Origin: an uncultured Massilia sp. | Lineage (GTDB): Bacteria; Pseudomonadota; Gammaproteobacteria; Burkholderiales; Burkholderiaceae | NCBI GenBank assembly: GCA_946886065.1 | Contig: CAMPHU010000053.1 | Location: 1 to 23,972 of the forward strand | Length of the DNA: 23,972 nucleotides | Direction of reading: 5' to 3' | Shown here: positions 2,646 through 23,020 of the stretch, piece after piece | Layout: each line of letters starts with the position of its first letter | How positions within the stretch are numbered: position 1 is the stretch's first letter | Program-made: the position numbers and the translations under genes | The notes under the pieces: model-generated | Database searches by the model: none | What the model saw: only the letters and a program-made list of their open reading frames with translations | What the model was told of the DNA's origin: nothing

Positions 2646-2660
2646 GTTTTTCGTTCCTAA

Positions 2661-2684
2661 GCGGCCGGCCCGCAGGCCGGCCGC
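2661..2684 (-). other. Intercistronic GC hairpin between acyl-CoA synthetase and thiolase genes
   Basis: A perfect inverted repeat, GCGGCCGGCC (2661-2670) and GGCCGGCCGC (2675-2684), is separated by a 4-nt loop. It lies between the synthetase stop (2699) and the thiolase ATG (2645). In the minus-strand transcript the stem is followed by TTAGGAACG, not a U-run, so a plain intrinsic terminator is unlikely. An mRNA-stability or processing element, or a partial attenuator, fits better (inference). Confidence 0.6.
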
Positions 2685-2698
2685 ATGATGTGTAAGCT

Positions 2699-4252
2699 TC
2701 AGATCTTGCGCTGCACGCCTTCCCAATACTGCGCGCGCAAGTCCTTCTTCAGCACCTTGCCCACCGGGCTGCGCGGCAGCGCGGCGACGAAGTCCACGCT
2801 CTTCGGCGCCTTCACCGAACCGAGCTGGCGCTTGCACAGGGCGACGATCTCCTCGTCGCTCACGCTCTGGCCCGCATTCAGTTCCACCACCGCCTTCACC
2901 GCCTCGCCCCACTGGTCGTCCGGCACGCCGATGACCGCGCAGTCCTGCACCGCCGGGTGGGCCCAGATGACCTGCTCGACCTCGCTCGGATAGACGTTGA
3001 AGCCGCCGCTGATGATCATGTCCTTCTTGCGGTCGGTGATGTGCAGGTAGCCTTCCCCGTCGATGTGGCCGATGTCGCCGGTATGCAGCCAGCCGTCGAT
3101 GATGGTCTCGGCCGTCTTGTCCGGCGCCTTGTAGTAACCCTTCATGACCAGGTCGCCGCGTACGCAGATCTCGCCGGTCTCGCCCTTCGGAAGGACCTGG
3201 TTGCGCTCGTCCATGATCTCGACGCGGATGAGCGGATTGGGCCGCCCGACCGAGGAGAGCCGTTCGTCGGACGCCAGTTCGCCGTTGCGGAAGTGCGCGC
3301 TGGGTGGCAGCGTGGCGATCGAGGCCGCAGCTTCGGTCTGGCCGTAGCCTCCGGCCATGACCGGGCCGAACACCTCGATCGCGCGCTTGAGCTTCTCGAC
3401 CGACATCGGCGCCGCCCCATACATGAAGTACTTGAGCGAGGAGAAATCCAGCTTCTCGATGCCCGGGATATCCAGCAGGCGGTAGATCACCGTGGGCGGC
3501 AGGAAGAACTCGGTGACCCGGTGCCGGGCGATCGACCCGAGCAACAGCGCCGGGTCGGGCTTGGGGAGCACCACCACGGTGCCGCCCTGCGCCGTGCACG
3601 GCAGCGACAGGATGCCCGCGGTATGCGTCATCGGCGCCGCCGCCATGTTCACGGGGCGCTGGCCGTCGTACGGGAGCGCCGTCATGAAGTGCGCGAAGCA
3701 GGTCTGGAACACGCGGTGCGTATTCATCACGCCCTTGGGCGCGCCGGTCGTGCCGCCGGTTGGCGAGAGCACCACCACGTCGTCCATGCCGACGTCGACC
3801 AGCGGCGCCATCGACGGCTGGCCCGCGCTCCATTGCTCCAGCGAGGGCGTGCCGGTCAGCTCGGCGTCGATGCAGATCCACAGCTTGATCTTCGGCAAGC
3901 GCGGGCGCAGCGCCTCGACCACGGGCGCGAAAGCCTGCTGGAAGAACAGCACTTCGCAGTCGAAGAAATCGAGGATGAACTGGTTCTCGTCGGGCGCATT
4001 GCGGCCGTTGACCGGGATCCAGGCCATGCCGGCACGCCACAGGCCGAGCGTGCAGGTCCAGGCGGTGACGTCGTTGTCGGCCCAGACCGCGCCCTTCGCC
4101 TCCCGGCCGAAACCGGCGCCGAGCAAGGCGTTGGCGATGCGGCAGGACAGCTCGCCGGTCTCCCGGAACGAATAGCTGCGCTCACCCTGGATATAGGCGG
4201 TGGCCTCGGGATCGATGCGCCAGCCGCGGTCGAAGAAATCGATGATTGCCAT
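2699..4252 (-). CDS. AMP-forming acyl-CoA synthetase (ANL superfamily)
   Basis: This 517-residue, full-length ANL enzyme activates a carboxylic acid with ATP and CoA through an acyl-adenylate. The core motifs are all present: the P-loop SPTGGTTGAPKG (163-174), GYGQTEA (302-308), HTGD (390-393), the hinge region TDRKK followed by SGGFNVYPSEVE (406-426), and the C-terminal catalytic Lys499 in SPVGKV. No signal peptide or membrane segment is seen, so it is cytoplasmic. The acid substrate cannot be read from sequence; length and motifs fit medium/long-chain or cyclic-acid CoA ligases. The start at 4252 is preceded by AGAGG at about 10 nt and lies 13 nt after the stop of the saccharopine-dehydrogenase-like gene. 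In the proposed pathway it would load the oxidised side chain onto CoA before the downstream thiolase acts. Confidence 0.92.
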   Translation of the reverse strand: MAIIDFFDRGWRIDPEATAYIQGERSYSFRETGELSCRIANALLGAGFGREAKGAVWADNDVTAWTCTLGLWRAGMAWIPVNGRNAPDENQFILDFFDCEVLFFQQAFAPVVEALRPRLPKIKLWICIDAELTGTPSLEQWSAGQPSMAPLVDVGMDDVVVLSPTGGTTGAPKGVMNTHRVFQTCFAHFMTALPYDGQRPVNMAAAPMTHTAGILSLPCTAQGGTVVVLPKPDPALLLGSIARHRVTEFFLPPTVIYRLLDIPGIEKLDFSSLKYFMYGAAPMSVEKLKRAIEVFGPVMAGGYGQTEAAASIATLPPSAHFRNGELASDERLSSVGRPNPLIRVEIMDERNQVLPKGETGEICVRGDLVMKGYYKAPDKTAETIIDGWLHTGDIGHIDGEGYLHITDRKKDMIISGGFNVYPSEVEQVIWAHPAVQDCAVIGVPDDQWGEAVKAVVELNAGQSVSDEEIVALCKRQLGSVKAPKSVDFVAALPRSPVGKVLKKDLRAQYWEGVQRKI

Positions 4253-4265
4253 GTCAGGCGTCCTC

Positions 4266-5399
4266 TCAGAGCTGGGTCACCGTGGCGCGCGCCAGGCCGC
4301 GCTGCTCCAGGAAGCCGAGCAGGTAGCGGTGGCCGAAGGCTTTCGAGCCGGAGGCGAAGCCGACCTTGTTGGTCTCGCCGTCGAGCAGCTTGATGGCGGC
4401 GGCGGCCTGCAGGGCGCCGGTAGAGATGTAGGGCGTGGTGCCGTGCAGGGTCGCGCGCACCGAGGCGAGCTGGCCGCGTCCGATCGCGAAGTCGACGGTG
4501 CGGTGCATGGTGGTCCGCTCGCGCGCCGGCATGGCCGGGGTGGTCGAATCGGCGATCTGCTTCAGCACCGCGTCCTGGTGCTCGCGCGGGAGGTGCTTGT
4601 ACTCCGCTTCCCACTTCTGGCCGAGCGCATGCACCGAGCGCATGAAATCGGTGTCGTAGAAGCCGACACCCGAGATGCAGTTACGCACGCGCGCGTCGTT
4701 CTGGAAGTAGATCGGCAGCGAAGTGCCGCTCCACGGCAGGGTAAACACCGGCTGCATGAAGGCGGGGTCGATCACGTTGAACGAGGCATCCGGGGCATGC
4801 GGCGCCAGTTTCTTTTCCCACAGGTAGAAGGCTTCGTTGCGCAGGGTCTCGAAGATCGTCGCGGTCGACCCCACGCTCACACCGGCGCCGGGACCGCGCG
4901 GGCCGCGGCACAGGGTGGCGGTTTCCAGGGAGTCCACGCCAGGGGTTTCGAGCGCCAGCTCGGCGGCGATCTCGGCGAAGCTGTACATGTAGGAGATCGA
5001 CGGCGAGACCAGCAGGCCGGCCTGGCGGTACAGCTCGCCGAACTGGTCGCGCACCTTGCGCACATAGGATTGCTCGCCGGTGGTGTCGAGATGGTGGCAG
5101 CCCGCCTTCAGTGCGGCTTCCACGCCGACCAGGCCGAAATTGCCGAACGGGCCGACCGTGTTGCACACGATCCTGGCGCCGCGGAAGGCTTCGGTGAGTG
5201 CCTCGACATTGTGCTCGGCTTCGACGATTTCGTATTCGGCCGATTCGAGGCGCACCACGCGCTGCTCCATCATCTCCTTCACGCGCTTGGCGTTGCGCGC
5301 CACGGCCGTGAAGGGAATGTTCTGGTCGATCAGCCAGTCCATGATCAACATGCCGGTATAACCGCTTGCGCCGTAGACGACAACTGGATGCTTAGCCAT
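4266..5399 (-). CDS. Saccharopine dehydrogenase-like NAD(P)-binding protein
   Basis: This 377-residue protein has an N-terminal Rossmann fold with GASGYTG at residues 10-16, the signature of saccharopine-dehydrogenase-like and trans-acting enoyl-reductase-like proteins. The segment NTVGPFGNFG followed by CHHLDTTGE is also typical of this family. True saccharopine dehydrogenases make lysine or degrade it, but this branch is poorly characterised and often sits beside lipid or CoA-ester genes. Reduction or oxidation of a CoA-bound or amine intermediate is possible (inference). It is cytoplasmic, with no signal peptide. The start is well supported by CAGGAGATATCTC before the ATG. It is separated from the upstream membrane-protein gene by 75 nt, in which I see no gene and no clear terminator, and from the synthetase gene by 13 nt. 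Confidence 0.8.
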   Translation of the reverse strand: MAKHPVVVYGASGYTGMLIMDWLIDQNIPFTAVARNAKRVKEMMEQRVVRLESAEYEIVEAEHNVEALTEAFRGARIVCNTVGPFGNFGLVGVEAALKAGCHHLDTTGEQSYVRKVRDQFGELYRQAGLLVSPSISYMYSFAEIAAELALETPGVDSLETATLCRGPRGPGAGVSVGSTATIFETLRNEAFYLWEKKLAPHAPDASFNVIDPAFMQPVFTLPWSGTSLPIYFQNDARVRNCISGVGFYDTDFMRSVHALGQKWEAEYKHLPREHQDAVLKQIADSTTPAMPARERTTMHRTVDFAIGRGQLASVRATLHGTTPYISTGALQAAAAIKLLDGETNKVGFASGSKAFGHRYLLGFLEQRGLARATVTQL

Positions 5400-5474
5400 G
5401 AGATATCTCCTGAAAATAGATGAATGTTGTTGTTGAAAGGTGGAAGGTGGGGCTGGACCGATGCCGCCGCCTGG

Positions 5475-6203
5475 TCAGGCGGCCGGGGCCATCCCGGCGC
5501 CCACCAGGGCCGGGGCGCGTTGGCGCAGTAAGCTGGTACCGAAGAGGAACAACCACAGGGGGTGGACGAGAAGCGTGATCATCAGGGTCGTTTCGCCGAG
5601 CGCGCGCATGCCGGCCAGGTTGAACGCGAATTCCAGCGCGAACAGGCCGGCGTCGAAGGCCAGCAGGCGGCCGAAGCCCCATTTCTCGGCGCGCAGGAAG
5701 CCTGCCGCCGCCACTGCCCACAGCAGGAAGACCGGCGCTTCGGCGTTCCAGACGCCCTTTGCCGCGTGCTGCAGGGCGAGCCAGCCGGCTTCGGCCGCCG
5801 CCTTGGACATCGGGTCCCCGCCCGCATGCAGTTCGGCCAGCGGCGCGAAGCTGAGGGTCAGCGCGGCGGCGCCGACGATCCCCAGCACGGCGTAGGCGAC
5901 CAGGCCGCTCACGGCGATGTCGGCCATGACACCCACGCGCTGGCGCATGCGCGCCCACAGATAGCCGCCCACCGCCAGGAAGGGAAGGTACCAGCCGAGG
6001 ATGTCGGCCCACATCGACAGGCGGTAGAGGTTTTGCCCTTCCGCGGAGAAGGCCAGCATCGCGGACGGACGTGCGAGTGCTTCGGTATCGAAATCGGCCG
6101 CGGCCGCGGCCAGGACCGCCATGGCCCAGCCAAGCACCGCGCCGATCACCGCCAGCCAACCGACGAAGCGGCGTGGGTCGTTCACTGTCATTGCTTGTTT
6201 CAT
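5475..6203 (-). CDS. Six-helix integral membrane protein of unknown function
   Basis: The 242-residue protein shows six hydrophobic segments (about residues 13-36, 64-84, 92-118, 155-171, 180-198 and 206-226) and a short basic C-terminal turn. I recognise no family. A His in the last helix (VHPLWLF, His214) and Trp-rich helix ends are notable, but there is no clear heme-ligand pair or transporter signature. It directly follows the third cytochrome gene (37-nt gap) and precedes the saccharopine-dehydrogenase-like gene, so a role in electron transfer from the cytochromes or in moving the product across the inner membrane is possible (inference only). The ATG at 6203 (MKQAM) has AGAAAGAG upstream. 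The frame stays open further upstream, but that part has no membrane character and overlaps the cytochrome gene. Confidence 0.75.
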   Translation of the reverse strand: MKQAMTVNDPRRFVGWLAVIGAVLGWAMAVLAAAAADFDTEALARPSAMLAFSAEGQNLYRLSMWADILGWYLPFLAVGGYLWARMRQRVGVMADIAVSGLVAYAVLGIVGAAALTLSFAPLAELHAGGDPMSKAAAEAGWLALQHAAKGVWNAEAPVFLLWAVAAAGFLRAEKWGFGRLLAFDAGLFALEFAFNLAGMRALGETTLMITLLVHPLWLFLFGTSLLRQRAPALVGAGMAPAA

Positions 6204-6240
6204 GGTTTTGCTCTTTCTGTTGTGGTGTGAATGCGGTCGC

Positions 6241-6924
6241 TCAGCGGCTGGCCGCGTAGTGCGCCAGGTCCTCGATATCCTGTTGCGACAAGGTCCCGGC
6301 GATCGCCGGCATCGCGCCGGTGCTGTCGCGGCGTGCGCCGTTCTTGAAGTGCGCGAGCTGTTCGGCCAGGTAGTCGACACCCTGCCCGGCCAGGCGCGGG
6401 AACTCGCCCTTCCCTTCCAGCTGCTGCCCGTGGCAGGCCGCGCAGTTGCTGGCCTTGGCCAGCGCTTCGCCGCGCTGCACGCGTACCGGATCGGCATGGA
6501 AGGTCTTGTTCGGCTGCGGCTTCATCTTCGAGAAATGCGCCACGATGGCGTCGAACTCGCGCTCCGACAGGCTGAGCGCGAATGGCGTCATGGTCGGGTC
6601 CTCGCGCTCGCCGCTGGCGAAGTCCGCGAGCTGCTTCCTGAGGTAGCCCTCGGTCTGGCCGGCCAGGCGCGGATAGGTCTGGGTCCCGGCATTGCCTTCC
6701 AGGCCGTCGTGGCAGTACAGGCAGGCATCGGTGGAACGCGGCCACGGGCCGCCCACCAGCTCGGCCTCGCTGGAGATCTTGTCGATCTCATTGCTGACCC
6801 GCAGCAAGCCGACAATCTCCGGACCGTAGACTATGCCGGCGACCAGGACGACCGTCGCCAGCACCCAGCCCGACCGCACGAGGATCTTCCTGGCCGGGCT
6901 TCGCGTGGTTTTGATGGTGTTCAT
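6241..6924 (-). CDS. Membrane-anchored diheme cytochrome c, copy 1 (c4-like)
   Basis: This 227-residue protein has an N-terminal anchor helix (about 18-40) and two c-type heme sites: CLYCH at 68-72 and CAACH at 161-165. Likely distal Met ligands are Met112 (TMTP) and Met205 (GAMPAIAG). The two-domain layout is like cytochrome c4, which shuttles electrons in the periplasm. It pairs with the amine oxidase encoded just upstream: the oxidase stop and this ATG share a base in TGATG, and a strong GGAGG lies 8 nt before the ATG, so translation is probably coupled. A GTG at 6927 directly upstream is an alternative start. Copy 1 differs from copies 2 and 3 by one extra residue after the first heme and by a divergent C-terminal helix. 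The likely role is electron acceptor for the partner oxidase (inference from the NicA2-CycN precedent). Confidence 0.9.
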   Translation of the reverse strand: MNTIKTTRSPARKILVRSGWVLATVVLVAGIVYGPEIVGLLRVSNEIDKISSEAELVGGPWPRSTDACLYCHDGLEGNAGTQTYPRLAGQTEGYLRKQLADFASGEREDPTMTPFALSLSEREFDAIVAHFSKMKPQPNKTFHADPVRVQRGEALAKASNCAACHGQQLEGKGEFPRLAGQGVDYLAEQLAHFKNGARRDSTGAMPAIAGTLSQQDIEDLAHYAASR

Positions 6925-8405
6925 CACGCCTTCCTCCCGCCCAGGGCCTGGAGCGCCTGCAAGGCCGCCGCATGGCCGGAACGTACCGCGCCATCCATGT
7001 AGCCCGCCCAGATGTCAGCCGTTTCCGTGCCCGACCAGATCAGCCGGCCGGCCGGCGGATGCAGGGCCTCGCCATACCTGGTGAGGAACCCGGGCGGCAT
7101 CGGCGAGACGCAGGTCAAGGTCCATGGATCCGCCTTGCGCCAGTCATGCTCGTGGTACGAGAGCGGATGCAGGGCTTCCTCGCCGAAGGCCTCGGCGTAG
7201 ATGCGCGAGAGCTGGGCCTGGGCCTGCTTCGGATCGGACGGCAGCATGCTGATGTGCACGAAGGCGTTGATCACGCCGAAGGAGAGGTCCTCCGGCGAAT
7301 TGTCATAGGCCCACAGCACCGGGCCCTTGGGCTGGAAGATCCACCCGTTCAGGCCCTTGTCGCGCCAGAACGGCCGCTTGTACACGTGGGCCGTCTTGCG
7401 TCCGGGCGTGAACGCCGGCCAGCGGCGCTGCATTTCGCGGCGCTTTTCCGGCAGCGGCGGATCGAAGGCGATCTGGTTGACCAGCGGCGGCGAGAGCGCG
7501 ACGACCACGCTGCGCGCGCGGATCACGCCTTTCGCGGTATGGATGGTGACCGGCCCGTCCTGCCAGTTCTCGATGCGCAGCACGGGGCTCTGCATGCGGA
7601 CCTTGTCGCCCAGCGCCTCCGCCATCTTGATCGACAGGATCTGCGAACCGCCCGAGATGCGGGTCTCCTGGGCGCCGCCCTTGACCGACTCCAGGCGGTC
7701 GTAGTTGCACTCCGCCGAATTCACCATCGACAGCCAGTGCAGCAGCGAGAGCCTTGCCGGCGAGGTCCCGCCCGTGATCGACAGGCCGGTCGACCAGCCG
7801 ATCTGGTCGACCGGCGCGATGTTCTTCTTCAGCAGCCAGTCGCCGACCGACATCGCATCGAATTCGGCAGCGCGCGGCGACTTCCACGGCGCGCCGGACG
7901 GCACGACCCTGGCCATCTCCTCGAGCTCGCGGGCGATCTTCGGATCGGTGCCGAACCCGCCTTCGGTATCGACGACGGCGCGCGCGCCGCCGGCCAGCAT
8001 GGTCGACTTGCCCTGCCAGTAGGTGGGGAAGGTGCCGACGCCCAGCTCGCGGGCCAGGTCGGCCACCGCGGTCTGGCCGGGGCCGATCCACTGGCCGCCC
8101 GCTTCCGAGAAATAGCCTTTGCCGAGCTTGTGGTTGAGGGTGCGGCCGCCGACACGGTCGCGCGCTTCCAGCACCACGAAGGATTCGCAGCCGGCCCGCT
8201 GCAGGTCGCGGGCCGCGGTCAGGCCGGCCAGCCCGGCGCCGATGATGGCGACATCGAGTACGCCTCGGTCTTCGCTCGTGGCGATCGCGGCGCCCGCTGC
8301 CGCGGGCAGTACCGCCGCCGTGGCGGCCGCCGCCATGCCGAGAAAGCCGCGCCGCGTGAGCGCTGCGCCTTCTAGCCCCTCTCCCTGTTTGTTTACTTCG
8401 TCCAT
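6924..8405 (-). CDS. Tat-exported flavin monoamine oxidase family protein, copy 1
   Basis: This 493-residue flavoprotein oxidises an amine or similar C-N/C-C bond. A twin-arginine signal (TRRGFLG at 17-23, then a long Ala-rich stretch) sends it folded to the periplasm. The FAD fold starts with GAGLAG (56-61) and LEARDRVGGRT follows. The MAO-B Lys296 equivalent is present in RKTAHVYKRPFW. The C-terminal FAD motif is SGTETADIWAGYMDGAV, with Tyr469 at the position of the MAO-B cage Tyr435. Where MAO-B attaches FAD through Cys397 there is Thr (TLTCVSPMPPG), so flavin is probably non-covalent. ATG 8405 matches the MDE start of copy 2 and has AGGA at 6 nt; an ATG at 8408 directly precedes it. The gene starts 61 nt after cytochrome copy 2 and is the only module junction with a real gap. 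Substrate unknown. Confidence 0.9.
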   Translation of the reverse strand: MDEVNKQGEGLEGAALTRRGFLGMAAAATAAVLPAAAGAAIATSEDRGVLDVAIIGAGLAGLTAARDLQRAGCESFVVLEARDRVGGRTLNHKLGKGYFSEAGGQWIGPGQTAVADLARELGVGTFPTYWQGKSTMLAGGARAVVDTEGGFGTDPKIARELEEMARVVPSGAPWKSPRAAEFDAMSVGDWLLKKNIAPVDQIGWSTGLSITGGTSPARLSLLHWLSMVNSAECNYDRLESVKGGAQETRISGGSQILSIKMAEALGDKVRMQSPVLRIENWQDGPVTIHTAKGVIRARSVVVALSPPLVNQIAFDPPLPEKRREMQRRWPAFTPGRKTAHVYKRPFWRDKGLNGWIFQPKGPVLWAYDNSPEDLSFGVINAFVHISMLPSDPKQAQAQLSRIYAEAFGEEALHPLSYHEHDWRKADPWTLTCVSPMPPGFLTRYGEALHPPAGRLIWSGTETADIWAGYMDGAVRSGHAAALQALQALGGRKA

Positions 8406-8466
8406 CATGTTTCCTATCAAGTGCGTTGTGCGCCAAATCGTTTCTGTTTCCGGCAAGCCGCGGGCG

Positions 8467-9147
8467 CTATCGGCTTGCAATGAACTGCGCCAGGTCGTCG
8501 ATGTCCCGTGGCGACAGCGCGCCGGCGATGGCCGGCATGGCGCCGGTGGCGTCGTAGCGGGTACCGTTCTTGAAGCGGGTCAGCTGGTCGCGCAGGTAGT
8601 CGTGGCCCTGCCCGGCCAGGCGCGGATAGCCGCCCTTCCCTTCCAGCTGCGCTCCATGGCAGGCCGCGCAGTTGTTGGCCTTGGCCAGCGCCTCGCCGCG
8701 CGCCACCCGCGCGGCATCGGCGTGGAAGCGCGTGTTCGGCTGGGGCTGCATCTTCGAGAAGTAGGCCGCCAGGCCGTCGAGCTCAGGCGCCGACATGCTC
8801 AGCGCCAGCGGCGTCATGGTGGGATCGCTGCGCTCGCCGCTGGCGAATGCGGTGAGCTGCTGCTTGAGATACGCCTCCGGCTGGCCGGCAAGGCTCGGAT
8901 AGGTCTGGGTACGCGCGTTGCCTTCGACGCCATGGCAGCCGATGCAGGCGTCGCTGGTGCGCGGCCACGCGCCGGCGACGCGGGCGTCGTCCTGCGCCTC
9001 CTGCTCGATCTGCTGGCCCAGTTGCACCAGGCGAACCAGCTCCGGGCCGTAGACGATGCCGGCAAGCGCGACGACCGGCAACAGCAGCAAGCTGGACAGC
9101 ACCAGCACTTTCCTGGCGCGGCTGCGCGTCCTTGTTACGGTATTCAT
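8467..9147 (-). CDS. Membrane-anchored diheme cytochrome c, copy 2 (c4-like)
   Basis: This 226-residue paralogue of the neighbouring cytochromes has a hydrophobic N-terminal anchor (about 16-34), heme motifs CIGCH (68-72) and CAACH (160-164), and likely distal Met111 and Met204. It begins in a TGATG overlap with the stop of oxidase copy 2, with a GTG three bases earlier as alternative start. By eye it is closer to cytochrome copy 3 than to copy 1: both lack the extra residue after the first heme and share LGQQI, QPEAYLK, YLRDQLTRFK and an IASR end. Electron transfer from oxidase copy 2 toward the respiratory chain is the likely job (inference). Confidence 0.9.
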   Translation of the reverse strand: MNTVTRTRSRARKVLVLSSLLLLPVVALAGIVYGPELVRLVQLGQQIEQEAQDDARVAGAWPRTSDACIGCHGVEGNARTQTYPSLAGQPEAYLKQQLTAFASGERSDPTMTPLALSMSAPELDGLAAYFSKMQPQPNTRFHADAARVARGEALAKANNCAACHGAQLEGKGGYPRLAGQGHDYLRDQLTRFKNGTRYDATGAMPAIAGALSPRDIDDLAQFIASR

Positions 9148-10625
9148 CACGTCCTCCCTCCCGCCAGGGCCTGCAGCGCCTGCAGCGCCGCCTGGCGGCC
9201 GGATCGCACCGCGCCGTCCATGTAGCCGGCCCAGATATCCGCCGTCTCCGTCCCCGACCAGATCAGCCGGCCGACCGGGGGATGCAGGGCTTCGCCATAC
9301 CTGGTGGCGAAACCGGGCGGCATGGGCGACACGCAGCTCAGCGTCCAGCGGTCCGCCTTGCCCCAGTCGCGGTCGTGATAGGCGATCGGATGCAGCGCCT
9401 CCTCGCCGAAGGCCTTGGCATAGATCCGCGAGAGTTCGGCCTCGGCCGCCTTGGGGTCGGACGGCAGCATGCCGTTGTGCACGAACGCATTGATCACACC
9501 GAAGGAGACATCCTCCGGCGAGTTGTCATACGCCCAGAGCACCGGCCCCTTGGTCTGGAAAATCCAGCCGCTCAGGCCCTTGTCGCGCCAGAACGCCTTC
9601 TTGTAGACGTGCGCCGTCTTGCGCATCGGCGCGTTCGCCGGCCAGCGCCGCTGCATTTCGCGGCGCTTTTCCGGCAGCGGCGGATCGAAGGCGATCTGGT
9701 TGCATAGCGGAGGCGAGAGCGCGACGATCACACTGCGCGCACGGATCACGCCCGTCGGGGTATGGATGGCGACCGGTCCGTCCTGCCAGCCTTCGATGCG
9801 CAGCACGGGCGTCGACAGGCGGACCTTGTCGCCCAGCGCCTTCGCCAGCTTGAGCGGCAGGATCTGCGAGCCGCCCGAGATCCGGGTCTTCTGCGCACCT
9901 TCCTTGATGCCTTCGAGCCGCTCGTACCGGCAATCGGCCGAATTGATCATCGACAGGTAGTACAGGAGCGAGAGTTTCATCGGCGAGGTGCCGCTCGTCA
10001 GCTGGACGCTCGCTGACCAGTCGAGCTGGTGCTCCGGTGCGATGTTCTTCTTCGCCAGCCAGTCGCCAACCGATATCGCGTCCAGCTCGGCGGCGCGCGG
10101 CGCCTTCCAGGGTGCGCCGGACGGCACGGTCCTGGCCATCTCCTCGAGTTCGCGCTGAAGCTTCGGATCGGTGCCGGGCACGCCGCCGAGCTCGATCGCG
10201 GCGTGGGCGTCGCCGGCCATCATCGTCGACTTGCCCTCCCAGTAGGTGGGGAAGGTGCCGACACCCAGCTCGCGGGCCAGGTCGGCGACCGCGGTCTGGC
10301 CAGGGCCGATCCACTGGCCGCCCGCTTCGGAAAAATAGCCCTTGCCGATGTCGTGGTTGAGGATGCGCCCGCCCACGCGGTCGCGCGCTTCCAGCACCAC
10401 GAAGGATTCGCAGCCGGCCCGCCGCAGGTCGCGCGCCGCCGTCAGGCCCGCCAGGCCGGCGCCGATGATGGCCACATCGAGCACGCCGCGCCCGTCGCTG
10501 GCGGCCTTCGCGGCGCTCGCCGCGGGCAGGACCGCAGTCGTGGCGGCCGCCGCCATGCCGAGAAAGCCGCGGCGGCTGAGCGTCGCGCGCTCCGGCCCCT
10601 CTCCGTGTTTGTTCAGTTCGTCCAT
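9147..10625 (-). CDS. Tat-exported flavin monoamine oxidase family protein, copy 2
   Basis: This 492-residue paralogue has the same architecture as copy 1: twin-arginine signal SRRGFLG (17-23), GAGLAG (55-60), conserved active-site Lys in RKTAHVYKKAFW, Ser at the covalent-Cys position (TLSCVSPMPPG), and C-terminal AGYMDGAV with Tyr468. Its first third and last 50 residues resemble copy 1 (for example GTFPTYW, TADIWAGYMDG). Much of the central and later part resembles copy 3 (RLSTPVLRIE, APMRKT, DPKAAEAEL, DWGKADRW), so it looks mosaic. The start lies 2 nt after the TAG of cytochrome copy 3 and has only a weak ribosome-binding site, consistent with translational coupling. It ends in a TGATG overlap with cytochrome copy 2. 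Confidence 0.9.
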   Translation of the reverse strand: MDELNKHGEGPERATLSRRGFLGMAAAATTAVLPAASAAKAASDGRGVLDVAIIGAGLAGLTAARDLRRAGCESFVVLEARDRVGGRILNHDIGKGYFSEAGGQWIGPGQTAVADLARELGVGTFPTYWEGKSTMMAGDAHAAIELGGVPGTDPKLQRELEEMARTVPSGAPWKAPRAAELDAISVGDWLAKKNIAPEHQLDWSASVQLTSGTSPMKLSLLYYLSMINSADCRYERLEGIKEGAQKTRISGGSQILPLKLAKALGDKVRLSTPVLRIEGWQDGPVAIHTPTGVIRARSVIVALSPPLCNQIAFDPPLPEKRREMQRRWPANAPMRKTAHVYKKAFWRDKGLSGWIFQTKGPVLWAYDNSPEDVSFGVINAFVHNGMLPSDPKAAEAELSRIYAKAFGEEALHPIAYHDRDWGKADRWTLSCVSPMPPGFATRYGEALHPPVGRLIWSGTETADIWAGYMDGAVRSGRQAALQALQALAGGRT

Positions 10626-10627
10626 CG

Positions 10628-11302
10628 CTAGCGGCTCGCAATGAACTGGGACAGGTCGTCGATGTCCTGTGGCGACAGCGCACCGGCGATGGCCGGCATG
10701 GCGCCGGTGGCGTCGTGGCGGGTGCCGGCCTTGAAGCGGGTCAGCTGGTCGCGCAGGTAGTCGTAGCCCTGCCCGGCCAGGCGCGGGAACTCGCCCTTGC
10801 CTTCCAGCTGCTGCCCGTGGCAGGAGGCGCAGTTGTTGGCCTTGGCCAGCGCCTCGCCGCGCGTTACGCGCGCCGGGTCGGCCTGGAAGGTAGAGTTAGG
10901 CTGCGCCTTCATCTTCGAGAAATACGACGCCAGGCCGTCGATTTCGCGGTCCGACATGCTGACCGCCAGGGTCGTCATGGTCGAATCGCTGCGCGCGCCG
11001 CTGGCGAAGTCCTTGAGCTGCTTCTTGAGATAGGCCTCGGGCTGCCCCGCCAGGCGTGCGTAGCCCTGGGCGCGCGCGCTGCCTTCGAAGCCGTGGCAGG
11101 CGATACAGGCATCGCTGGCGCGCGGCCAAGGGCCGCCCAGGCGCGTGTTCTCTTCCGCGAGCTGGTCGATCTGCTGGCCGAGGCGGATCAGGCCGACCAG
11201 CTCCGGTCCGTAGATGATCCCGGCCGCGACGACCGCCGCCGACAGCATCCCTGCCATCATCAGCAGCCGCTTGCTGCGTGGTTTCGTGGTACTGCCCATC
11301 AT
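10628..11302 (-). CDS. Membrane-anchored diheme cytochrome c, copy 3 (c4-like)
   Basis: This 224-residue paralogue has an N-terminal anchor (about 13-31), heme sites CIACH (66-70) and CASCH (158-162), and likely distal Met109 and Met202. It overlaps the stop of oxidase copy 3 (ATGA, 4 nt); a second ATG follows at once (MMGS), with GGAGG upstream serving either. In promoter-proximal order it is the first of the three cytochromes. Compared with copy 1 it lacks one residue after the first heme motif. Expected to be a periplasm-facing electron carrier for oxidase copy 3 (inference). Confidence 0.9.
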   Translation of the reverse strand: MMGSTTKPRSKRLLMMAGMLSAAVVAAGIIYGPELVGLIRLGQQIDQLAEENTRLGGPWPRASDACIACHGFEGSARAQGYARLAGQPEAYLKKQLKDFASGARSDSTMTTLAVSMSDREIDGLASYFSKMKAQPNSTFQADPARVTRGEALAKANNCASCHGQQLEGKGEFPRLAGQGYDYLRDQLTRFKAGTRHDATGAMPAIAGALSPQDIDDLSQFIASR

Positions 11303-12771
11303 GCCTTCCTCCCTGCGACGGCTTGCAGCGCCTGCAGCGCCGCCTTGTGGCCGGAGCGGATCGCCCCGTCCATGGTGGTGATCCAGATTTCCGCGGTTTC
11401 CGTGCCGGCCCAGAGCAGGCGGCCGAGCGGCGGATGCAGCACGTCGCCGTACTTGGTCAGGAAGCCCGGGGGGATCGGCGAGGTGCAGCTCAGGGACCAG
11501 CGGTCGGCCTTGCCCCAGTCATGCTCGTGATAGGCGATCGGATGCAGGGCCTCGTCGCCGAGCGCCTGGGCGTAGATGCGCGAGAGTTCGGCCTCGGCCG
11601 CCTTGGGGTCGGACGGCAGCACGCCGTTGTTCACGAAGGCCGCGATCACGCCGAAGGAGACGTCTTCCGGCGAGTTGTCGAAGGCCCACTGGAGCGGGCC
11701 TTTGGCCTGCACGATCATGCCGTTGAAGCCCTTCTCGCGCCAGAATGCCTTCTTGTAGACGTGCACCGTCTTGCGCATCGGCGCGTAGGCCGGCCAGCGC
11801 CGCTGCATTTCGCGGCGCTTTTCCGGCAGGGGCGGATCGAAGGCGAGCTGGTGGCACAGCGATGGCGAGAGCGCCACGATCACGCTGCGCGCGCGCACCA
11901 CGCCGGTCGGGGTGTGGATGGAGACCGGCCCGTTCTGCCAGTTCTCGATGCGCAGCACGGGCGTCGACAGCCGAACCTTGTCACCGAGGGCTTCCGCCAT
12001 CTTGATCGACAGGATTTGCGAGCCGCCCGAGATGCGGGCTTCCTGGGCGCCGCCCTTGACCGCCTCGAGCTGCCTGTAATTGCAGTCGGCCGAATTGATC
12101 AGCGACAGGTAGTGGAGCATCGACAGCTTGGTCGGCGAGGTACCCGTGGTCAGCTGCGCGGCCAGCACCCAGCCGAGCTGGTCTTCCGGGGAGAGATTCT
12201 TGGTCGCCAGCCAGTCGGCCAGCGACATGGCGTCGAACTCGGCCGCGCGCGGCGAGGTCCAGGGTGCGGCGGTCGGGACGGTTTTCGCCATCTCTTCGAG
12301 CTCGCGGCGCAACACCGGATCGGTTTCGAAGCCGCCGTCGCTCTCGGCCGTGACGCAGACGCCGTCGCCCACCATCGCGATCTTGCCCTGCCAGTGGGTG
12401 AGGAAGGTGCCGACACCGAGTTCACGGGCCAGGTCGTACACGGCCGTCTGGCCCGGTCCGATCCACTGGCCGCCCGCCTCGGAGAAGTAGCCGTCGCCGA
12501 GGTCGTGGTTGAGGGTACGCCCACCGACGCGGTCGCGCGCCTCCAGCACCACGAAGGACTCGCAGCCGGCGCGCTTCAGGTCGCGTGCAGCAGTCAGGCC
12601 GGCCAGGCCGGCGCCGATAATGGCGATATCGAGCACGCCGCGCTCTTCGCCCGCGGCGCCCACCACATTCGGCAGCGTCACCGCGGCCGCGGCCGCGGCG
12701 ATGCCCAGAAAGCCGCGGCGGCTGACTTCGGGCCCGTCCTTGGCCGGTATTTCCTTTGTTCGCTTGTTCAT
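11299..12771 (-). CDS. Tat-exported flavin monoamine oxidase family protein, copy 3 (cage Tyr replaced)
   Basis: This 490-residue member is the promoter-proximal and most divergent oxidase. Twin-arginine signal SRRGFLG (17-23), GAGLAG (53-58), LEARDRVGGRT and the conserved Lys in RKTVHVYKKAFW are kept, and Ser lies at the covalent-Cys position (SLSCTSPIPPG). The C-terminal motif, AGYMDGAV in copies 1 and 2, is ITTMDGAI here. Thr466 therefore replaces the Tyr that in MAO-B (Tyr435) forms half of the aromatic cage. The frame is intact and full length, so this is a change of active site rather than decay. A good ribosome-binding site (AGAAAGAG) precedes the ATG, which lies 21 nt after the YCF48-like gene. 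It overlaps cytochrome copy 3 by 4 nt. A different substrate from copies 1 and 2 is likely (inference). Confidence 0.9.
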   Translation of the reverse strand: MNKRTKEIPAKDGPEVSRRGFLGIAAAAAAVTLPNVVGAAGEERGVLDIAIIGAGLAGLTAARDLKRAGCESFVVLEARDRVGGRTLNHDLGDGYFSEAGGQWIGPGQTAVYDLARELGVGTFLTHWQGKIAMVGDGVCVTAESDGGFETDPVLRRELEEMAKTVPTAAPWTSPRAAEFDAMSLADWLATKNLSPEDQLGWVLAAQLTTGTSPTKLSMLHYLSLINSADCNYRQLEAVKGGAQEARISGGSQILSIKMAEALGDKVRLSTPVLRIENWQNGPVSIHTPTGVVRARSVIVALSPSLCHQLAFDPPLPEKRREMQRRWPAYAPMRKTVHVYKKAFWREKGFNGMIVQAKGPLQWAFDNSPEDVSFGVIAAFVNNGVLPSDPKAAEAELSRIYAQALGDEALHPIAYHEHDWGKADRWSLSCTSPIPPGFLTKYGDVLHPPLGRLLWAGTETAEIWITTMDGAIRSGHKAALQALQAVAGRKA

Positions 12772-12792
12772 TGCGTCTCTTTCTATCTTTTA

Positions 12793-13770
12793 TTAATGTC
12801 TTGCCTGCGCCGCTACCGGCCCCGCCATCGAGACCAGCACGGGCGGCCGGGAGCCGTCGTCGAGGACTGCCGTGAGCGGCTCCTGCCCTTCGCGCTGTGC
12901 CAGCGTGAAGTCCTTGCCGTCGTTGCTACTGTTCAACACGGTTCCACCCATGCCGACCACCGTCACGCGGCCGTCCGCCAGTTGCGCGATCCCGGTCAGC
13001 GATTGGACGGTGTGCGACTGGACCGCCTGCCAGGTCTGGCCGTCATCGCTGCTGCGGTACAGGTGGCCGCGCATGCCGCACAGCAGCAGCGTGCCGTCGC
13101 GCAGCGCGCTCCCGTACCAGAGCGAACCTTTGTTCCCGGTGGAGAGCGCCTGCCAGGTCCGGCCCTTGTCGGCCGAGCGGAAGATGGCGCCGGCCTCCGC
13201 CGCGATGAACAGGGTGCCGCGCGGCGAGGCAAACACGTGCATGAGGTGGCGGTCGGCGTCCTCGCCGCTGCCGATCGGCAGCTCGGTCCAGGTGCGGCCC
13301 GCATCGCGCGTTTCGATCGCCCAGCCGTACAGGCCCACGGCGATCCCGTGCTCCCAGCTGTCGAAGTGGAGCGAGAGGATCGGCTGCTCGGCGCCCGGCG
13401 TGGAGCGCAGGAGCGCCCAGGTCTCGCCGCCGTCGTCCGTGCGCAGCACCACGCCGTCGTGGCCGGCAGCGAAGCCCTGGCGCTCATCCAGGAACTGCAC
13501 GGTGGTCAGCATCGACCGCACCGGCACCGCCTTCGCTTGCCGGAAGGCCTTGCCGTCGTCGGAAAGCAGCACCAGGCCATGGTCGCCCACCGCGACCACG
13601 CGCTTGCCGGCGCGCGCCACGGCCAGCAGCGGCGCGCCGGCCACGCTGGCGACGCGTTGCGCCGGCGCGATGCTGGGCCAGTGTCGTGCCGGCGAGGTGT
13701 CGGCCGCCGCTGCCGTCGAAGCGGCGGCGAGGACGATCAGCGCGAGAGAAAGAAATCGTAGGGAGCTCAT
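12793..13770 (-). CDS. YCF48/BNR-repeat exported protein
   Basis: This 325-residue protein has a cleavable Sec signal (about 1-23, ending in STAAAA) and six Asp-box/BNR-like turns, at about residues 70-76, 111-118, 155-161, 199-206, 240-247 and 281-288 (for example TDDGGETW, SSDDGQTW). This predicts a periplasmic beta-propeller like YCF48/HCF136, which in plants and cyanobacteria is a photosystem II assembly factor. In non-photosynthetic proteobacteria such proteins commonly lie next to MMPL/RND, DUF1302 and DUF1329 genes, as here, and are often mislabelled as photosystem proteins. It probably serves the envelope complex with those neighbours (inference). The ATG at 13770 is chosen because the signal peptide begins there; AAGGA is 11 nt upstream. 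It follows the RND gene by 20 nt. Confidence 0.87.
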   Translation of the reverse strand: MSSLRFLSLALIVLAAASTAAAADTSPARHWPSIAPAQRVASVAGAPLLAVARAGKRVVAVGDHGLVLLSDDGKAFRQAKAVPVRSMLTTVQFLDERQGFAAGHDGVVLRTDDGGETWALLRSTPGAEQPILSLHFDSWEHGIAVGLYGWAIETRDAGRTWTELPIGSGEDADRHLMHVFASPRGTLFIAAEAGAIFRSADKGRTWQALSTGNKGSLWYGSALRDGTLLLCGMRGHLYRSSDDGQTWQAVQSHTVQSLTGIAQLADGRVTVVGMGGTVLNSSNDGKDFTLAQREGQEPLTAVLDDGSRPPVLVSMAGPVAAQARH

Positions 13771-13790
13771 GGTAAACAGCGTCCTTATCT

Positions 13791-16169
13791 TCAATGTTGC
13801 AAAATCGCCGACATGCGCACCGGGCTGCGGCGCGGGACCATCCACTCGAGCACGGCGGCGAAGGCCGGCAGCAGCGTGATCGCCATGACCATGTTCACGA
13901 GAAACATGAAGGTCAGCAGCGCCCCCATGTCGGCCTGGAACTTCAGGCTCGAGAACATCCAGGTCGCCACGCCGATCGACAGCGTGATGGCGGTGAACAC
14001 GGTCGCCAGGCCGGTCTCCGCCATCGCCAGCTCCAGCGCCTTGGTGAAGGCCAGGCCCTTGGACAGCTGCACCTGCAGGCGGTTGTAGATGTAGAAGGCG
14101 TAGTCGACGCCGATGCCGACAGCCAGCACCATGACCGGCAAGGTGGCCACGGTCAGGCCGATCTCGAGCTCCTTCATGAACCAGTAGCCGATCCAGGTGC
14201 CCACGGTCAGCGGCAGGCAGCAGGCCACCATCGCCCGCCAGTCGCGGTAGACGAGGAACACGAGAATCAGGATGGCCGCGTACACGTAGAGCATCATCGG
14301 CATCTCGCTGTGCTCGAGGACTTCATTGGTGGCTGCCTGCACGCCGGCGTTGCCGCTGGCGAGACGGACGGCGACGCCGTCGAGCCGGTTCGAGGCGCGG
14401 AATTCCTCCACGGCGGCCACCACGCCCTTGATCGTGGTGGCGCGGTGATCCGGCAGGTAGAGGTTGACGCCCTGCACGCGGCAGTCGTTCGAGGCCAGGC
14501 CGGCGATGCGGTTGTTCACGCCCTGCACCTGCGAGCCCAGGCCGTGCGGATCGCGGGTCAGGGTGGCCATCTTGGGATTGCCCTCGTTCATGCCGGCGTT
14601 GTAGAGCTTGAGCTGCCCGGCCAGCGAGTCGGCCGATACCACGCCGGGCACGCTGCCCATGCGCCAGGCGAATTCGTCGATGAACAGCAGTGCGTCGGCG
14701 CGCGAACAGACCTCGCCCTGGCGCTCCGGCGCGGCCTCGAACACGACGGTCAGCCAGTCCAGGCCCACGTCGAAGCGGCTGACCACCGCCGCGGCGTCCT
14801 GGTTGTAGCGCGAGTCGGCGCGCAGCTCCGGCGCACCGGCCTGCAGGCTGCCGACGTGGCGCCCCTGGCTCTGCCAGAACGCAAGGCCGAACACCAGGGC
14901 GCCGACCAGGGTCACTGCCAAGGCGTTGCGCGGCCGGGCGATGCGGGCCAGCGCCCCCAGCCAGGCGCTATGGCGTTCGCGCCGCGCCAGCGCCTGGTGC
15001 GCGAACTCCGGCGTGAAGTGGAAGTAGGAGGCCGCCACCGGCAGCATCATCAGGTTGGTGAGGATCTTGTAGCCGACTCCGATCGCGGCGGTGATGGCCA
15101 GCTCGCGGATCATCGGGATCGGGATCAGGATCAGCGTGACGAAGCTCACCAACGCCGTGACCAGGGCGAGCGAGCCCGGAATCAGGAGGCCGGTGAAGCT
15201 GCGGCGCGCGGCGACGGCGGAATCGGTGCCGTGGGCGACTTCGCGGACGATGAAGTTGATCTGCTGGATGCCGTGCGAGACGCCGATCGCGAACACCAGG
15301 AAGGGGACCAGGATCGCGAGCGGATCGAGGCCGAAGCCGAGCAGGTGCAAGGTGCCGAACTGCCACACCAGCGAGGTGAGCGAGCAGGCCAGCGGCAGCA
15401 GGGTCAGGCGGATCGAGCGGCTATACCAGTACACGGCCAGGCCGGTGAGGAGGAAGGCCACCACGAAGAAGTGCATCACCTCGTCCGAGCGGTCGGCGAT
15501 GTCGCCGATCTGCTTGGCGAAGCCGATAATCTGGATCTCGACCTGGTCGTTCTCGAACTTGGCGCGGATCTCCTGCTCGAGCAGGCGGTTGAACTGGATG
15601 TAGTCGAGCTTCTTTCCCGTGCGCGGATCGACGTCGGTCAGCTCGGCGGTGATCAGGGCGCTGGTCTGGTCGCGCGCGACCAGCGTGCCGACGTGGCCGC
15701 CGGCCATCGCCCGCTGGCGCATCTTGGCGATGACCTCGGCGCTGAGTTTTTCCGGCACGATGTCCCCGCCGGCCACCGGTTCGGCCCTGAAGCCGTCCTC
15801 GGTGATCTCGGTGAAGAACACGTTCGGCGTCCACAGCGAGGTGACGCTGGAACGGTCCACGCCCGGCAGGTAGGTGACCGCGTCGGTCACCTTGAGCAGC
15901 TGGGTGAGCGCGGCCGCGTTCCAGATCTCGCCTTCGCGGGCGTGGACGGCGATGGTCAGCCGGTTGGCCCCGAACAGCTGGTCGCGGTACTGTTCGAAGG
16001 TCTGGATGTATTCATGGCCTTGCGGCAGCTGCTTCTCGAAGCCTGCTTCGAGCTGGAGCTTGCCCGCGAGGACGCCCATGAATACCGTGAAGCCTCCCAG
16101 TACCACGAGGAAGGCCAGGCGGTAGCGGAACAGGGCGCCTTCGAGGCGGGTGATGAAATGGGCAAGCAT
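13791..16169 (-). CDS. MMPL/RND superfamily transporter
   Basis: This 792-residue inner-membrane protein has the duplicated RND layout. It has one helix near the N-terminus (about 16-38), a large periplasmic loop, a five-helix bundle starting near 232 (HFFVVAFLLTGLAVYW), a helix near 415, a second periplasmic loop, and a second bundle to the C-terminus. That last bundle contains GIGVDYAFYIYNR at about 685-697, the typical MMPL motif in which the Asp relays protons. It resembles hopanoid/lipid exporters (HpnN-like, MmpL) more than AcrB-type drug pumps, being shorter, and no membrane-fusion or TolC partner is nearby. The ATG overlaps the DUF1302 stop (TGATG). Neighbours suggest movement of a hydrophobic compound through the envelope; the direction is not known. 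Confidence 0.92.
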   Translation of the reverse strand: MLAHFITRLEGALFRYRLAFLVVLGGFTVFMGVLAGKLQLEAGFEKQLPQGHEYIQTFEQYRDQLFGANRLTIAVHAREGEIWNAAALTQLLKVTDAVTYLPGVDRSSVTSLWTPNVFFTEITEDGFRAEPVAGGDIVPEKLSAEVIAKMRQRAMAGGHVGTLVARDQTSALITAELTDVDPRTGKKLDYIQFNRLLEQEIRAKFENDQVEIQIIGFAKQIGDIADRSDEVMHFFVVAFLLTGLAVYWYSRSIRLTLLPLACSLTSLVWQFGTLHLLGFGLDPLAILVPFLVFAIGVSHGIQQINFIVREVAHGTDSAVAARRSFTGLLIPGSLALVTALVSFVTLILIPIPMIRELAITAAIGVGYKILTNLMMLPVAASYFHFTPEFAHQALARRERHSAWLGALARIARPRNALAVTLVGALVFGLAFWQSQGRHVGSLQAGAPELRADSRYNQDAAAVVSRFDVGLDWLTVVFEAAPERQGEVCSRADALLFIDEFAWRMGSVPGVVSADSLAGQLKLYNAGMNEGNPKMATLTRDPHGLGSQVQGVNNRIAGLASNDCRVQGVNLYLPDHRATTIKGVVAAVEEFRASNRLDGVAVRLASGNAGVQAATNEVLEHSEMPMMLYVYAAILILVFLVYRDWRAMVACCLPLTVGTWIGYWFMKELEIGLTVATLPVMVLAVGIGVDYAFYIYNRLQVQLSKGLAFTKALELAMAETGLATVFTAITLSIGVATWMFSSLKFQADMGALLTFMFLVNMVMAITLLPAFAAVLEWMVPRRSPVRMSAILQH

Positions 16170-18109: not shown

Positions 18110-18145
18110 CTCCGTCCCCTTGTTAGGTGTTTTCCTGGTGCTGTC

Positions 18146-19510: not shown

Positions 19511-19536
19511 CTGGGTTCTCCTTTCGAATTGGTATC

Positions 19537-19553
19537 CGGGCGGCGGGCGCCCG
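19537..19553 (-). other. GC-rich hairpin in the leader of the long operon
   Basis: Inverted repeat CGGGCG (19537-19542) and CGCCCG (19548-19553) with a 5-nt loop. It lies between the predicted transcription start (about 19579) and the ribosome-binding site of the DUF1329 gene. No U-run follows. It could stabilise the 5' end of the mRNA or tune initiation (inference). Confidence 0.4.
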
Positions 19554-19585
19554 TCACATCGTTTTATTCTTCTTTAGTCTTGTAC

Positions 19586-19614
19586 ATTACACCTAAGTTA
19601 GGACAAATGGACAA
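19586..19614 (-). promoter_or_regulatory. Predicted sigma70-type promoter of the long operon
   Basis: On the minus strand, TTGTCC (19614-19609) as -35 and TGTAAT (19591-19586) as -10 are separated by exactly 17 nt. The start point would be near 19579, giving a leader of about 68 nt before the GTG of the DUF1329 gene. The -35 region contains a tandem 8-mer (GGACAAAT, GGACAAAC on the plus strand). This is the only AT-rich gap upstream of the first operon gene. Confidence 0.6.
19592..19602. promoter_or_regulatory. Candidate operator A inside the promoter spacer
   Basis: CCTAAGTTAGG is a perfect 11-bp palindrome around a central G, sitting within the 17-bp spacer between -35 and -10. A dimeric regulator bound here would block RNA polymerase, a common repressor layout. 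A near-identical site lies at 19810-19826. No regulator gene is in the window. Confidence 0.5.
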
Positions 19615-19626
19615 ACATACGGCGAA

Positions 19627-19806
19627 AAAAAATGAAATGCGCCAGCGATGCCGATCCCGGCCTGCATTCCTTCCACCTCGGGCCAAACAGCGGCCTGATT
19701 CCACTGCATCGTTCCATTACGCTTTCCAGTACGACCAGGCCTGGACGCCACCTTCAGGACCTGCTTCAAGGGCACCGAATCCAAAATATCCCACTTGAAT
19801 TAGTAC
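19627..19806. other. Intergenic stretch without a recognised gene
   Basis: This lies between the predicted operon promoter and operator B, downstream of the chemoreceptor stop. It contains no convincing protein gene, RNA gene or terminator; an A8 run (19625-19632) marks one end. A 63-codon minus-strand frame starting with TTG exists but has no family features. It may be upstream regulatory DNA or carry a small RNA; I cannot support either. Confidence 0.4.
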
Positions 19807-19809
19807 ATG

Positions 19810-19826
19810 CTACCAAACTTAGGTAG
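19810..19826. promoter_or_regulatory. Candidate operator B, near copy of operator A
   Basis: On the minus strand this reads CTACCTAAGTTTGGTAG, a 17-bp imperfect palindrome (7 of 8 pairs match). It shares ACCTAAGTT[A/T]GG with operator A, 11 of 12 positions. Centres are 221 bp apart, close to 21 helical turns. It also falls between a possible minus-strand -35 TTGCTT (19834-19829) and -10 TAGCAT (19812-19807), spaced 16 nt, so a second regulated promoter is possible. Confidence 0.4.
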
Positions 19827-19835
19827 AAAAGCAAA

Positions 19836-21452: not shown

Positions 21453-21482
21453 GGTTGGCGTATTCCCTTGGCGTGGCTCGGA

Positions 21483-21513: not shown

Positions 21514-21530
21514 CATGGTTGCGGAGGATG

Positions 21531-21938: not shown

Positions 21939-21947
21939 CTCAGCCTC

Positions 21948-22988: not shown

Positions 22989-23020
22989 GATCTTGAGTGA
23001 GTTGTTGCATCGTTTTTCTG

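Follow-up and report, generated by a model that had tools for sequence, protein, structure and literature searches.

Three tandem units of a Tat-type flavin amine oxidoreductase and a diheme cytochrome c in an uncultured Massilia sp.: candidate cytochrome-linked amine dehydrogenases

What three consecutive pairs of a flavin amine oxidoreductase (FAO) and a cytochrome c might oxidize, and whether they arose by recent triplication, are the questions raised by a contig of an uncultured Massilia sp. (GenBank assembly GCA_946886065.1, contig CAMPHU010000053.1, positions 1 to 23,972). This whole stretch of 23,972 nucleotides is referred to as the window. Analysis of the window revealed six genes on the minus strand, from position 12771 to 6241, in which FAO and diheme cytochrome c genes alternate three times. 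An initial annotation made from the sequence alone had placed six co-oriented, alternating genes at exactly these coordinates; the Pfam model Amino_oxidase (PF01593) was matched by all three FAOs and cytochrome c models were matched by all three partners. We consider it probable that the array encodes three amine dehydrogenases exported by the twin-arginine translocation (Tat) system, each translationally coupled to a membrane-anchored diheme cytochrome of the c4 type, which would oxidize a hydrophobic amine in the periplasm.

The first unit consists of fao1 (positions 11299 to 12771; PF01593, E 1.1e-52) and cyt1 (10628 to 11302), the second of fao2 (9147 to 10625; E 5.2e-54) and cyt2 (8467 to 9147), and the third of fao3 (6924 to 8405; E 1.2e-54) and cyt3 (6241 to 6924). 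The start of fao3 was taken as the ATG at 8405; an alternative ATG is located at 8408. The annotated overlaps of FAO stop and cytochrome start codons were found in all three units, with four bases in fao1/cyt1 (ATGA) and one base each in fao2/cyt2 and fao3/cyt3 (TGATG). The units themselves are separated by 2 bases (cyt1 to fao2) and 61 bases (cyt2 to fao3). Tat-like motifs (SRRGFL in FAO1 and FAO2, TRRGFL in FAO3) and two CxxCH motifs in each cytochrome were also present as annotated. Export of the FAOs is predicted from the motif; a loose Tat pattern, RRx[FL][LIM] within the first 80 residues, was detected in 103 of 120 listed homologues.

Phylogenetic analysis of 41 FAO rows placed the window copies in three different clades, alpha (FAO1; support 99/98), beta (FAO2; 100/96), and gamma (FAO3; 100/97). 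A group beside gamma, named delta, comprises the second copies of the Massilia type; it was weakly supported as one clade in this tree and supported with 100/96 in another tree of 31 of the 120 listed homologues. The FAO and cytochrome trees omitted locus L002 (which nearly duplicates L001), the repeat stretch L090, cytochrome rows shorter than 180 amino acids, and FAO rows shorter than 300 amino acids, the last filter having taken out the cut gamma copy of L012. A recent in-place triplication of the FAOs was rejected, as holding the three window FAOs together gave a P value of 0.000319 in the approximately unbiased test. On this phylogeny, the window FAOs are old paralogues. An orthologous array was identified in genome G475, from the genus of Cupriavidus alkaliphilus, which carries three FAOs at a spacing of 2.2 kb, each followed by a cytochrome; their identities to FAO1, FAO2, and FAO3 are 83, 82, and 81%, respectively, and they fall into alpha, beta, and gamma. 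In genome G428, from the genus of Massilia pinisoli, three FAOs are accompanied by a single cytochrome; this is an independent triple because the second and third FAOs are sisters (98/93).

Comparison of the window genes with their G475 orthologues revealed nonsynonymous divergence (dN) of 0.09 to 0.10 and synonymous divergence (dS) of 0.52 to 0.66 for the FAOs and dN of 0.18 to 0.20 and dS of 0.53 to 0.74 for the cytochromes. Since dN is well below dS against this independent array, all six window genes look constrained. Between the copies within the window, dS was 0.39 to 0.50 and dN 0.12 to 0.19 for the FAOs, and dS was 0.40 to 0.53 and dN 0.19 to 0.26 for the cytochromes. The FAO copies within the window thus differ less at silent sites and more in protein sequence than the orthologue pairs do. 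Partial gene conversion combined with selection keeping the copies different is possibly the cause; shared codon use could also give the dS pattern. At L012 (1 to 12005), gamma and beta units are about 10 kb apart, and a transposase-like open reading frame (ORF; 2403 to 3686, read from the sequence) lies between them, which suggests that this array was split by mobile elements.

The three window FAOs share 71.6 to 80.1% pairwise identity. A search with the FAO1 sequence revealed the bacterial monoamine oxidase (MAO) 8p84 as the nearest match (252 bits), and the NicA2 structures scored 96.7 bits. A structural model of FAO1 was obtained with a mean predicted local distance difference test (pLDDT) score of 80.9, poor at residues 1 to 43, 329 to 331, and 426 to 429; in Foldseek, 8p84 was its best match and NicA2 appeared from rank 47. 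Alignment of 38 rows, comprising 35 of the 120 listed homologues and the three window FAOs, revealed Lys334 and Cys429 as invariant in all 38. Positions are compared with MAO-B residues that we take to be Lys296, Cys397, and Tyr435. The lysine at position 296 is present in all window FAOs (Lys334, Lys336, and Lys338). HMMER, applied to FAO3, placed the invariant cysteine (Cys429/431/433 in the window FAOs) on Cys397, the covalent flavin site, and a gap-free reading shifts the match by one residue. Cys429 as a replacement of MAO-B Tyr398 was dropped as the settled reading after this alignment; both assignments are possible. Membership of the FAOs in the limonene dehydrogenase CtmAB group was ruled out, since the CtmAB covalent-flavin motif GF-L/R-x-N/S-T/L-HA, as given in PMC11061730, is absent from all three.

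The position of MAO-B Tyr435 distinguishes the copies. FAO1 has threonine there (Thr466), and FAO2 and FAO3 have tyrosine. None of the 14 alpha FAOs has tyrosine (Thr in 9, Ser in 3, Ala in 2), and tyrosine is found in all 5 beta and all 17 gamma/delta FAOs. Because the alpha copies lack this flavin-facing tyrosine while the beta, gamma, and delta copies keep it, a division of labour between them is suggested. In the set of 120 listed homologues, 76 have Tyr here, 19 Ser, 13 Thr, 10 Ala, and 1 Gly, with 1 unread.

The window cytochromes are 61.6 to 71.3% identical to each other, and Cyt1 is nearest to c4 cytochromes by sequence. A model of Cyt1, with a mean pLDDT of only 68.9, matched first the cytochrome c4 of the Pseudomonas aeruginosa bc1-cbb3 supercomplex (8smr_K), followed by other c4 cytochromes (6q2u) and the diheme subunit of flavocytochrome c. 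In all 23 cytochromes compared, the two heme motifs are invariant, as are the methionines M109 and M202. The model contains one hydrophobic N-terminal helix (residues 12 to 56, low confidence), within which Y31-G32-P33 is invariant in 20 of 20 rows; helix and invariance together argue against a cleaved signal, and we infer that the window cytochromes are membrane anchored.

Gene pairs were counted at 18 loci (the window, L001, L003 to L015, L031, L032, and L089). A cytochrome gene directly follows 31 of the 36 FAO genes of the related loci, and in all 31 directly adjacent pairs the stop codon of the FAO gene shares bases with an in-frame cytochrome start codon, which is more than expected by chance. 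The gamma cytochromes, including Cyt3, form one clade (12 rows, 100/98). At nine loci with two cytochromes, counted without L012 (units apart) and L002 (second cytochrome cut), mean identity was 68% between cytochromes of the same position versus 60% across positions, and the same position was favoured in 28 of 36 comparisons per position. The gamma clade and the higher same-position identity support the inheritance of whole FAO-cytochrome units. Several results speak against strict pairing. The two L007 cytochromes group together (89/85), and the placement of the window's Cyt1 and Cyt2 was not resolved in the cytochrome tree. The three window cytochromes as one clade gave a P value of 0.093, so a recent in-place triplication is not rejected for them, and a clade of the beta cytochromes with Cyt2 (P = 0.405) was neither shown nor rejected. 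The pairing is thus not strict, and the initial proposal of dedicated pairs is right only in part: the gamma unit has its own cytochrome clade, but at some loci several FAO genes precede a single cytochrome gene. At L004, L015, L031, and L032, the FAO genes are consecutive and the single cytochrome gene comes last, unlike the strict alternation in the window.

The distribution of such arrays was analyzed with FAO1 as the query of a pattern scan across genome contigs, which yielded 15 loci. Ten have two neighbouring FAO-cytochrome units (one with the second cytochrome cut by the contig end), two have two FAOs and one cytochrome, two contain a single unit, and at L012 about 10 kb separates two units. 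Six genera holding a known member were then searched with FAO2 at E 1e-120, and matches were obtained in the genera of G003 (3 of 62 genomes), G008 (11 of 60), G004 (2 of 40), G010 (30 of 65), G001 (5 of 16), and G006 (4 of 74); since these genera were chosen for holding members, the counts are not random frequencies. The tandem clade, defined by at least 68% identity to FAO2, was present in 18 of the 317 genomes. The number of tandem copies, for which the initial annotation had proposed a genome count, was three in only two of these genomes (G428 and G475); two neighbouring copies were present in 14, two copies about 10 kb apart in G011, and a single copy in G010. The other 37 genomes contain only FAO relatives of about 60% identity, with two copies in 36 of them, separated by about 3 to 18 kb where a single contig holds both; duplication is therefore common among these more distant FAOs. 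In a sample spread across the order, with at most three candidates scored per listed genome, 1 of 399 genomes matched at 1e-150, which was the genome at the centre of this analysis itself. Other Burkholderiales keep subsets of the alpha-beta-gamma array. Plasmid regions of P. aeruginosa, Cupriavidus, Burkholderia, and Caballeronia, compared as six stretches of which four contain no listed gene, have one FAO-cytochrome pair or copies several kilobases apart.

The genomic surroundings provide information on the possible substrate. All genes described in this paragraph are encoded on the minus strand. Upstream of the array are genes for a DUF1329 LolA-like protein (18146 to 19510; PF07044, E 2e-130), a DUF1302 protein (16169 to 18109; PF06980, E 8e-121), an RND/MMPL transporter of the HAE3 type (13791 to 16169; PF03176, E 3.3e-21; TIGR00921 HAE3 at 128.8 bits, below the cutoff of 351.9), and a YCF48/BNR protein (12793 to 13770; PF14870, E 7e-22), the last starting at the ATG at 13770 within ORF 12793 to 13845 and lying 21 bases upstream of fao1. 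The Ame proteins of Castellaniella defragrans belong to these four families, and their loss lowered monoterpene tolerance (PMC6394551); in Ame letters, the window order is B-A-D-C. An RND match was found in 12 of 18 related loci (L002, L004, L005, L007, L008, L011, L013, L014, L015, L031, L032, and L089), the 18 here being L001 to L015, L031, L032, and L089, several of which are short or end near the array. Directly after cyt3 is a gene whose product has no Pfam match (5475 to 6203), and a relative of it follows the array in seven related loci (L003, L005, L008, L009, L010, L011, and L014). It is followed by genes for a saccharopine-dehydrogenase-like protein with DUF5938 (4266 to 5399; PF19362, E 4e-51; PF03435, E 2.6e-6), an AMP-binding acyl-coenzyme A (CoA) ligase (2699 to 4252; PF00501, E 8e-73), a thiolase of the lipid-transfer-protein type (1404 to 2645, start ATG 2645; PF22691 and PF00108; NCBIfam lipid-transfer protein at 307.7 bits, below the cutoff of 436), and a flavin adenine dinucleotide (FAD)-dependent DAO-type oxidoreductase cut by the window end (1 to 1392; PF01266, E 5e-64). 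Genes for a ligase, lipid-transfer-type thiolase, DAO, acyl-CoA dehydrogenase, SDR, and PhyH recur around the relatives.

The co-directional run exceeds the array and comprises 14 genes, from the DUF1329 gene (19510) to the thiolase gene (ending at 1404), with gaps of at most 75 bases (20 bases before the YCF48 gene and 53 before the thiolase gene). A scan of positions 4000 to 21600 for promoters and terminators gave no signal beyond chance, and transcription of the run as a single transcript is therefore likely. Rfam and phage-homologue searches gave no match above threshold or chance. Beyond the run, positions 19836 to 23063 contain genes for a porin-like protein, a small phosphate-binding-like protein, and a chemotaxis receptor, the first two without a Pfam match and named from the annotation of relatives; relatives of this trio occur near FAO-cytochrome genes at L008 and, judging from annotation, on L017, a plasmid stretch of P. 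aeruginosa. An ORF of 130 amino acids (23060 to 23452), between the porin-like gene and a thiolase gene cut by the window end, has a weak recombinase domain match (PF07508, E 1.6e-6) and could represent either a gene fragment or a small gene of the resolvase type.

Taken as a pathway, the array would work as follows. A hydrophobic amine would be oxidized at FAD in the periplasm by hydride transfer, with little use of O2, and FADH2 would give single electrons to the two hemes of c4, from which they would reach a terminal oxidase, with a cbb3-type enzyme as the most likely one. The CoA ligase, thiolase, and oxidoreductases encoded in the same direction may process the carbon product, and the Ame-like system may deal with the hydrophobic substrate or its toxic products. 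The alpha copy, lacking the flavin-facing tyrosine, probably takes a different or bulkier substrate. The substrate is the weakest step: a hydrophobic compound with a C-N bond, its carbon skeleton ending as CoA esters, is favoured because the array is located among Ame-like hydrophobe-efflux, CoA ligase, and thiolase genes. A literature search for the substrate gave no lead beyond Castellaniella.

Several observations weigh against the proposal of cytochrome-linked amine dehydrogenases. We know of no activity, substrate, or cytochrome reduction recorded for members of the tandem clade. No aldehyde dehydrogenase was found among the window proteins searched, and the window FAOs have the lysine that is associated with O2 reactivity. 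The alignments are ambiguous as to whether Cys429 binds FAD covalently and as to the first cage position, and the 435 tyrosine is also lost outside alpha in the listed homologues. At 4 of the 18 loci (L004, L015, L031, and L032), two or three FAOs precede a single cytochrome. Akram et al. 2025 (PMC12224317) described more than 100 Tat-FAOs beside cytochrome genes in three clades; the window pairs fit the description of clade 1. The clade 1 FAOs are reported there to react with O2 at 160 to 590 M-1 s-1, about like free flavin, and with c4 in solution at 290 to 2700 M-1 s-1, so that c4 reduction is modest, only about two to five times the O2 rates, and the B. anthina dehydrogenase candidate of clade 2 has, according to the authors, comparable rates with O2 and cytochrome. 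Because the reaction with c4 partners is only modest in solution, electron flow to c4 is not proven even in clade 1. The initially proposed function as periplasmic amine dehydrogenases feeding the respiratory chain is supported in kind, an adjacent Tat-FAO and cytochrome c being the published signature of cytochrome-using amine dehydrogenases (PMC12224317).

Other explanations were weighed against this proposal. The FAOs might be periplasmic flavin dehydrogenases acting on a non-amine, such as a terpenoid- or steroid-like hydrophobic compound oxidized at carbon, with the Ame-like system in the same pathway. The Ame gene set is tied to monoterpene use in Castellaniella (PMC6394551), the alpha copy lacks the 435 tyrosine, and the ligase, lipid-transfer-type thiolase, PhyH, and acyl-CoA dehydrogenase genes around the relatives are compatible with such a route. 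The best-matching solved enzymes by both sequence and model are, however, amine oxidases, the catalytic-site lysine is invariant in the 38 aligned rows, and the CtmAB covalent-flavin histidine motif is missing. NicA2, an amine enzyme, also has an altered cage. A non-amine substrate is quite unlikely on this evidence. It is very unlikely that the FAOs are periplasmic O2 oxidases whose cytochromes serve another purpose or accept electrons weakly. According to PMC12224317, the Tat-FAOs without cytochromes that were tested are mostly fast with O2 and the clade 1 FAO-c4 reactions are slow, and Lys334 is conserved; the same source, however, finds that clade 1 enzymes react with O2 at about the slow rate of free flavin, the gamma cytochromes form their own clade, and translational coupling was seen in all three window units and all 31 adjacent pairs of related loci.

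The copies might also be interchangeable and kept only for dosage, as their identity of 71.6 to 80.1% would allow and as the dS between FAO copies would suggest, since it lies below that between window and G475, as if copies exchange sequence (or share codon use). This is unlikely, as dN between FAO copies exceeds that between orthologues, the 435 change is specific to alpha in 14 of 14 cases, and the alpha-beta-gamma order is kept in G475. The proposal of three amine dehydrogenases can be extended to a conserved periplasmic multienzyme module, in which an alpha enzyme lacking the 435 tyrosine and beta/gamma enzymes bearing it would work one after the other, or form mixed dimers, to convert one hydrophobic substrate. 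The Ame-like system would deliver or clear this substrate, and electrons would leave via membrane-anchored c4. This extension is possible if rather doubtful; if true, it would be an undescribed respiratory first stage in the degradation of hydrophobic nitrogen compounds. The array offers three natural enzyme-cytochrome pairs in one cell and, with alpha, a natural active-site variant, and the tuning of the O2 reaction by FAOs is a named open question in PMC12224317. The cytochrome specificity tests in that paper compared proteins from different organisms; with three pairs in one cell and relatives in which two or three FAO genes precede one cytochrome gene, cognate and noncognate partners can be compared within one organism. 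The Ame-like and CoA ligase context is a first lead to the substrate of c4-linked enzymes.

Among known systems, the nearest is clade 1 of PMC12224317, the only report on c4- or diheme-linked Tat-FAOs found in the open-licence literature. As described there, its FAOs occur in Burkholderia and Pseudomonas, are slow with O2, and have diheme c4 partners of about 20 kDa that are predicted to be membrane bound; the tested pairs are from B. metallica, P. aeruginosa, and B. stagnalis. The window resembles it in that each Tat-type FAO adjoins a diheme c4-type cytochrome with an N-terminal helix, and it differs in that its FAOs appear to form a separate clade, with B. metallica P0100, 60% identical to FAO1, branching outside the tandem clade. 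Since clade 1 already describes this variant, the array is less new than the initial annotation held when it found a triplicated version unfamiliar, and G475 and G428 provide further triples. The main text of PMC12224317 does not use the word tandem, and no array is described in its abstract, Results, or Discussion. AmeABCD of C. defragrans likewise combines DUF1302, DUF1329, COG4447/YCF48, and HAE3-type RND proteins; the window differs in order (DUF1329, DUF1302, RND, YCF48 rather than A-B-C-D), and its HAE3 score is below the curated cutoff. The term amine oxidase is absent from the main text of PMC6394551.

The NicA2/Pnao-CycN system of Pseudomonas putida S16, with which the array had initially been compared, likewise consists of a Tat-exported FAO and an adjacent cytochrome gene and passes electrons from FADH2 to cytochrome c; the S16 genome has two FAO genes with a single cytochrome gene between them (PMC12224317). 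The comparison holds for the kind of enzyme, but the window is nearer to clade 1: CycN is a monoheme class I cytochrome of about 11 kDa, whereas all three window cytochromes have two CxxCH motifs, and FAO1 is distant from NicA2 by sequence (96.7 bits versus 252 for MAO 8p84). The monoamine oxidases (8p84, MAO-A, and MAO-B) share the predicted fold, about 28 to 36% identity, and the lysine near flavin N5, and they differ from the alpha copy in the residue equivalent to Tyr435, which is kept in FAO2 and FAO3. Monoamine oxidases are known as O2 oxidases, not as partners of cytochromes. Flavocytochrome c sulfide dehydrogenase (1fcd and 3vrd) has a diheme cytochrome of a fold similar to that of the Cyt1 model. 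It is also a periplasmic flavoprotein paired with a diheme cytochrome, with a flavoprotein family and a substrate different from those of the window FAOs. In comparison with these systems, the FAO-cytochrome pair is already known, while what appears to be new is the array, old and ordered, together with its unusual first copy, alpha.

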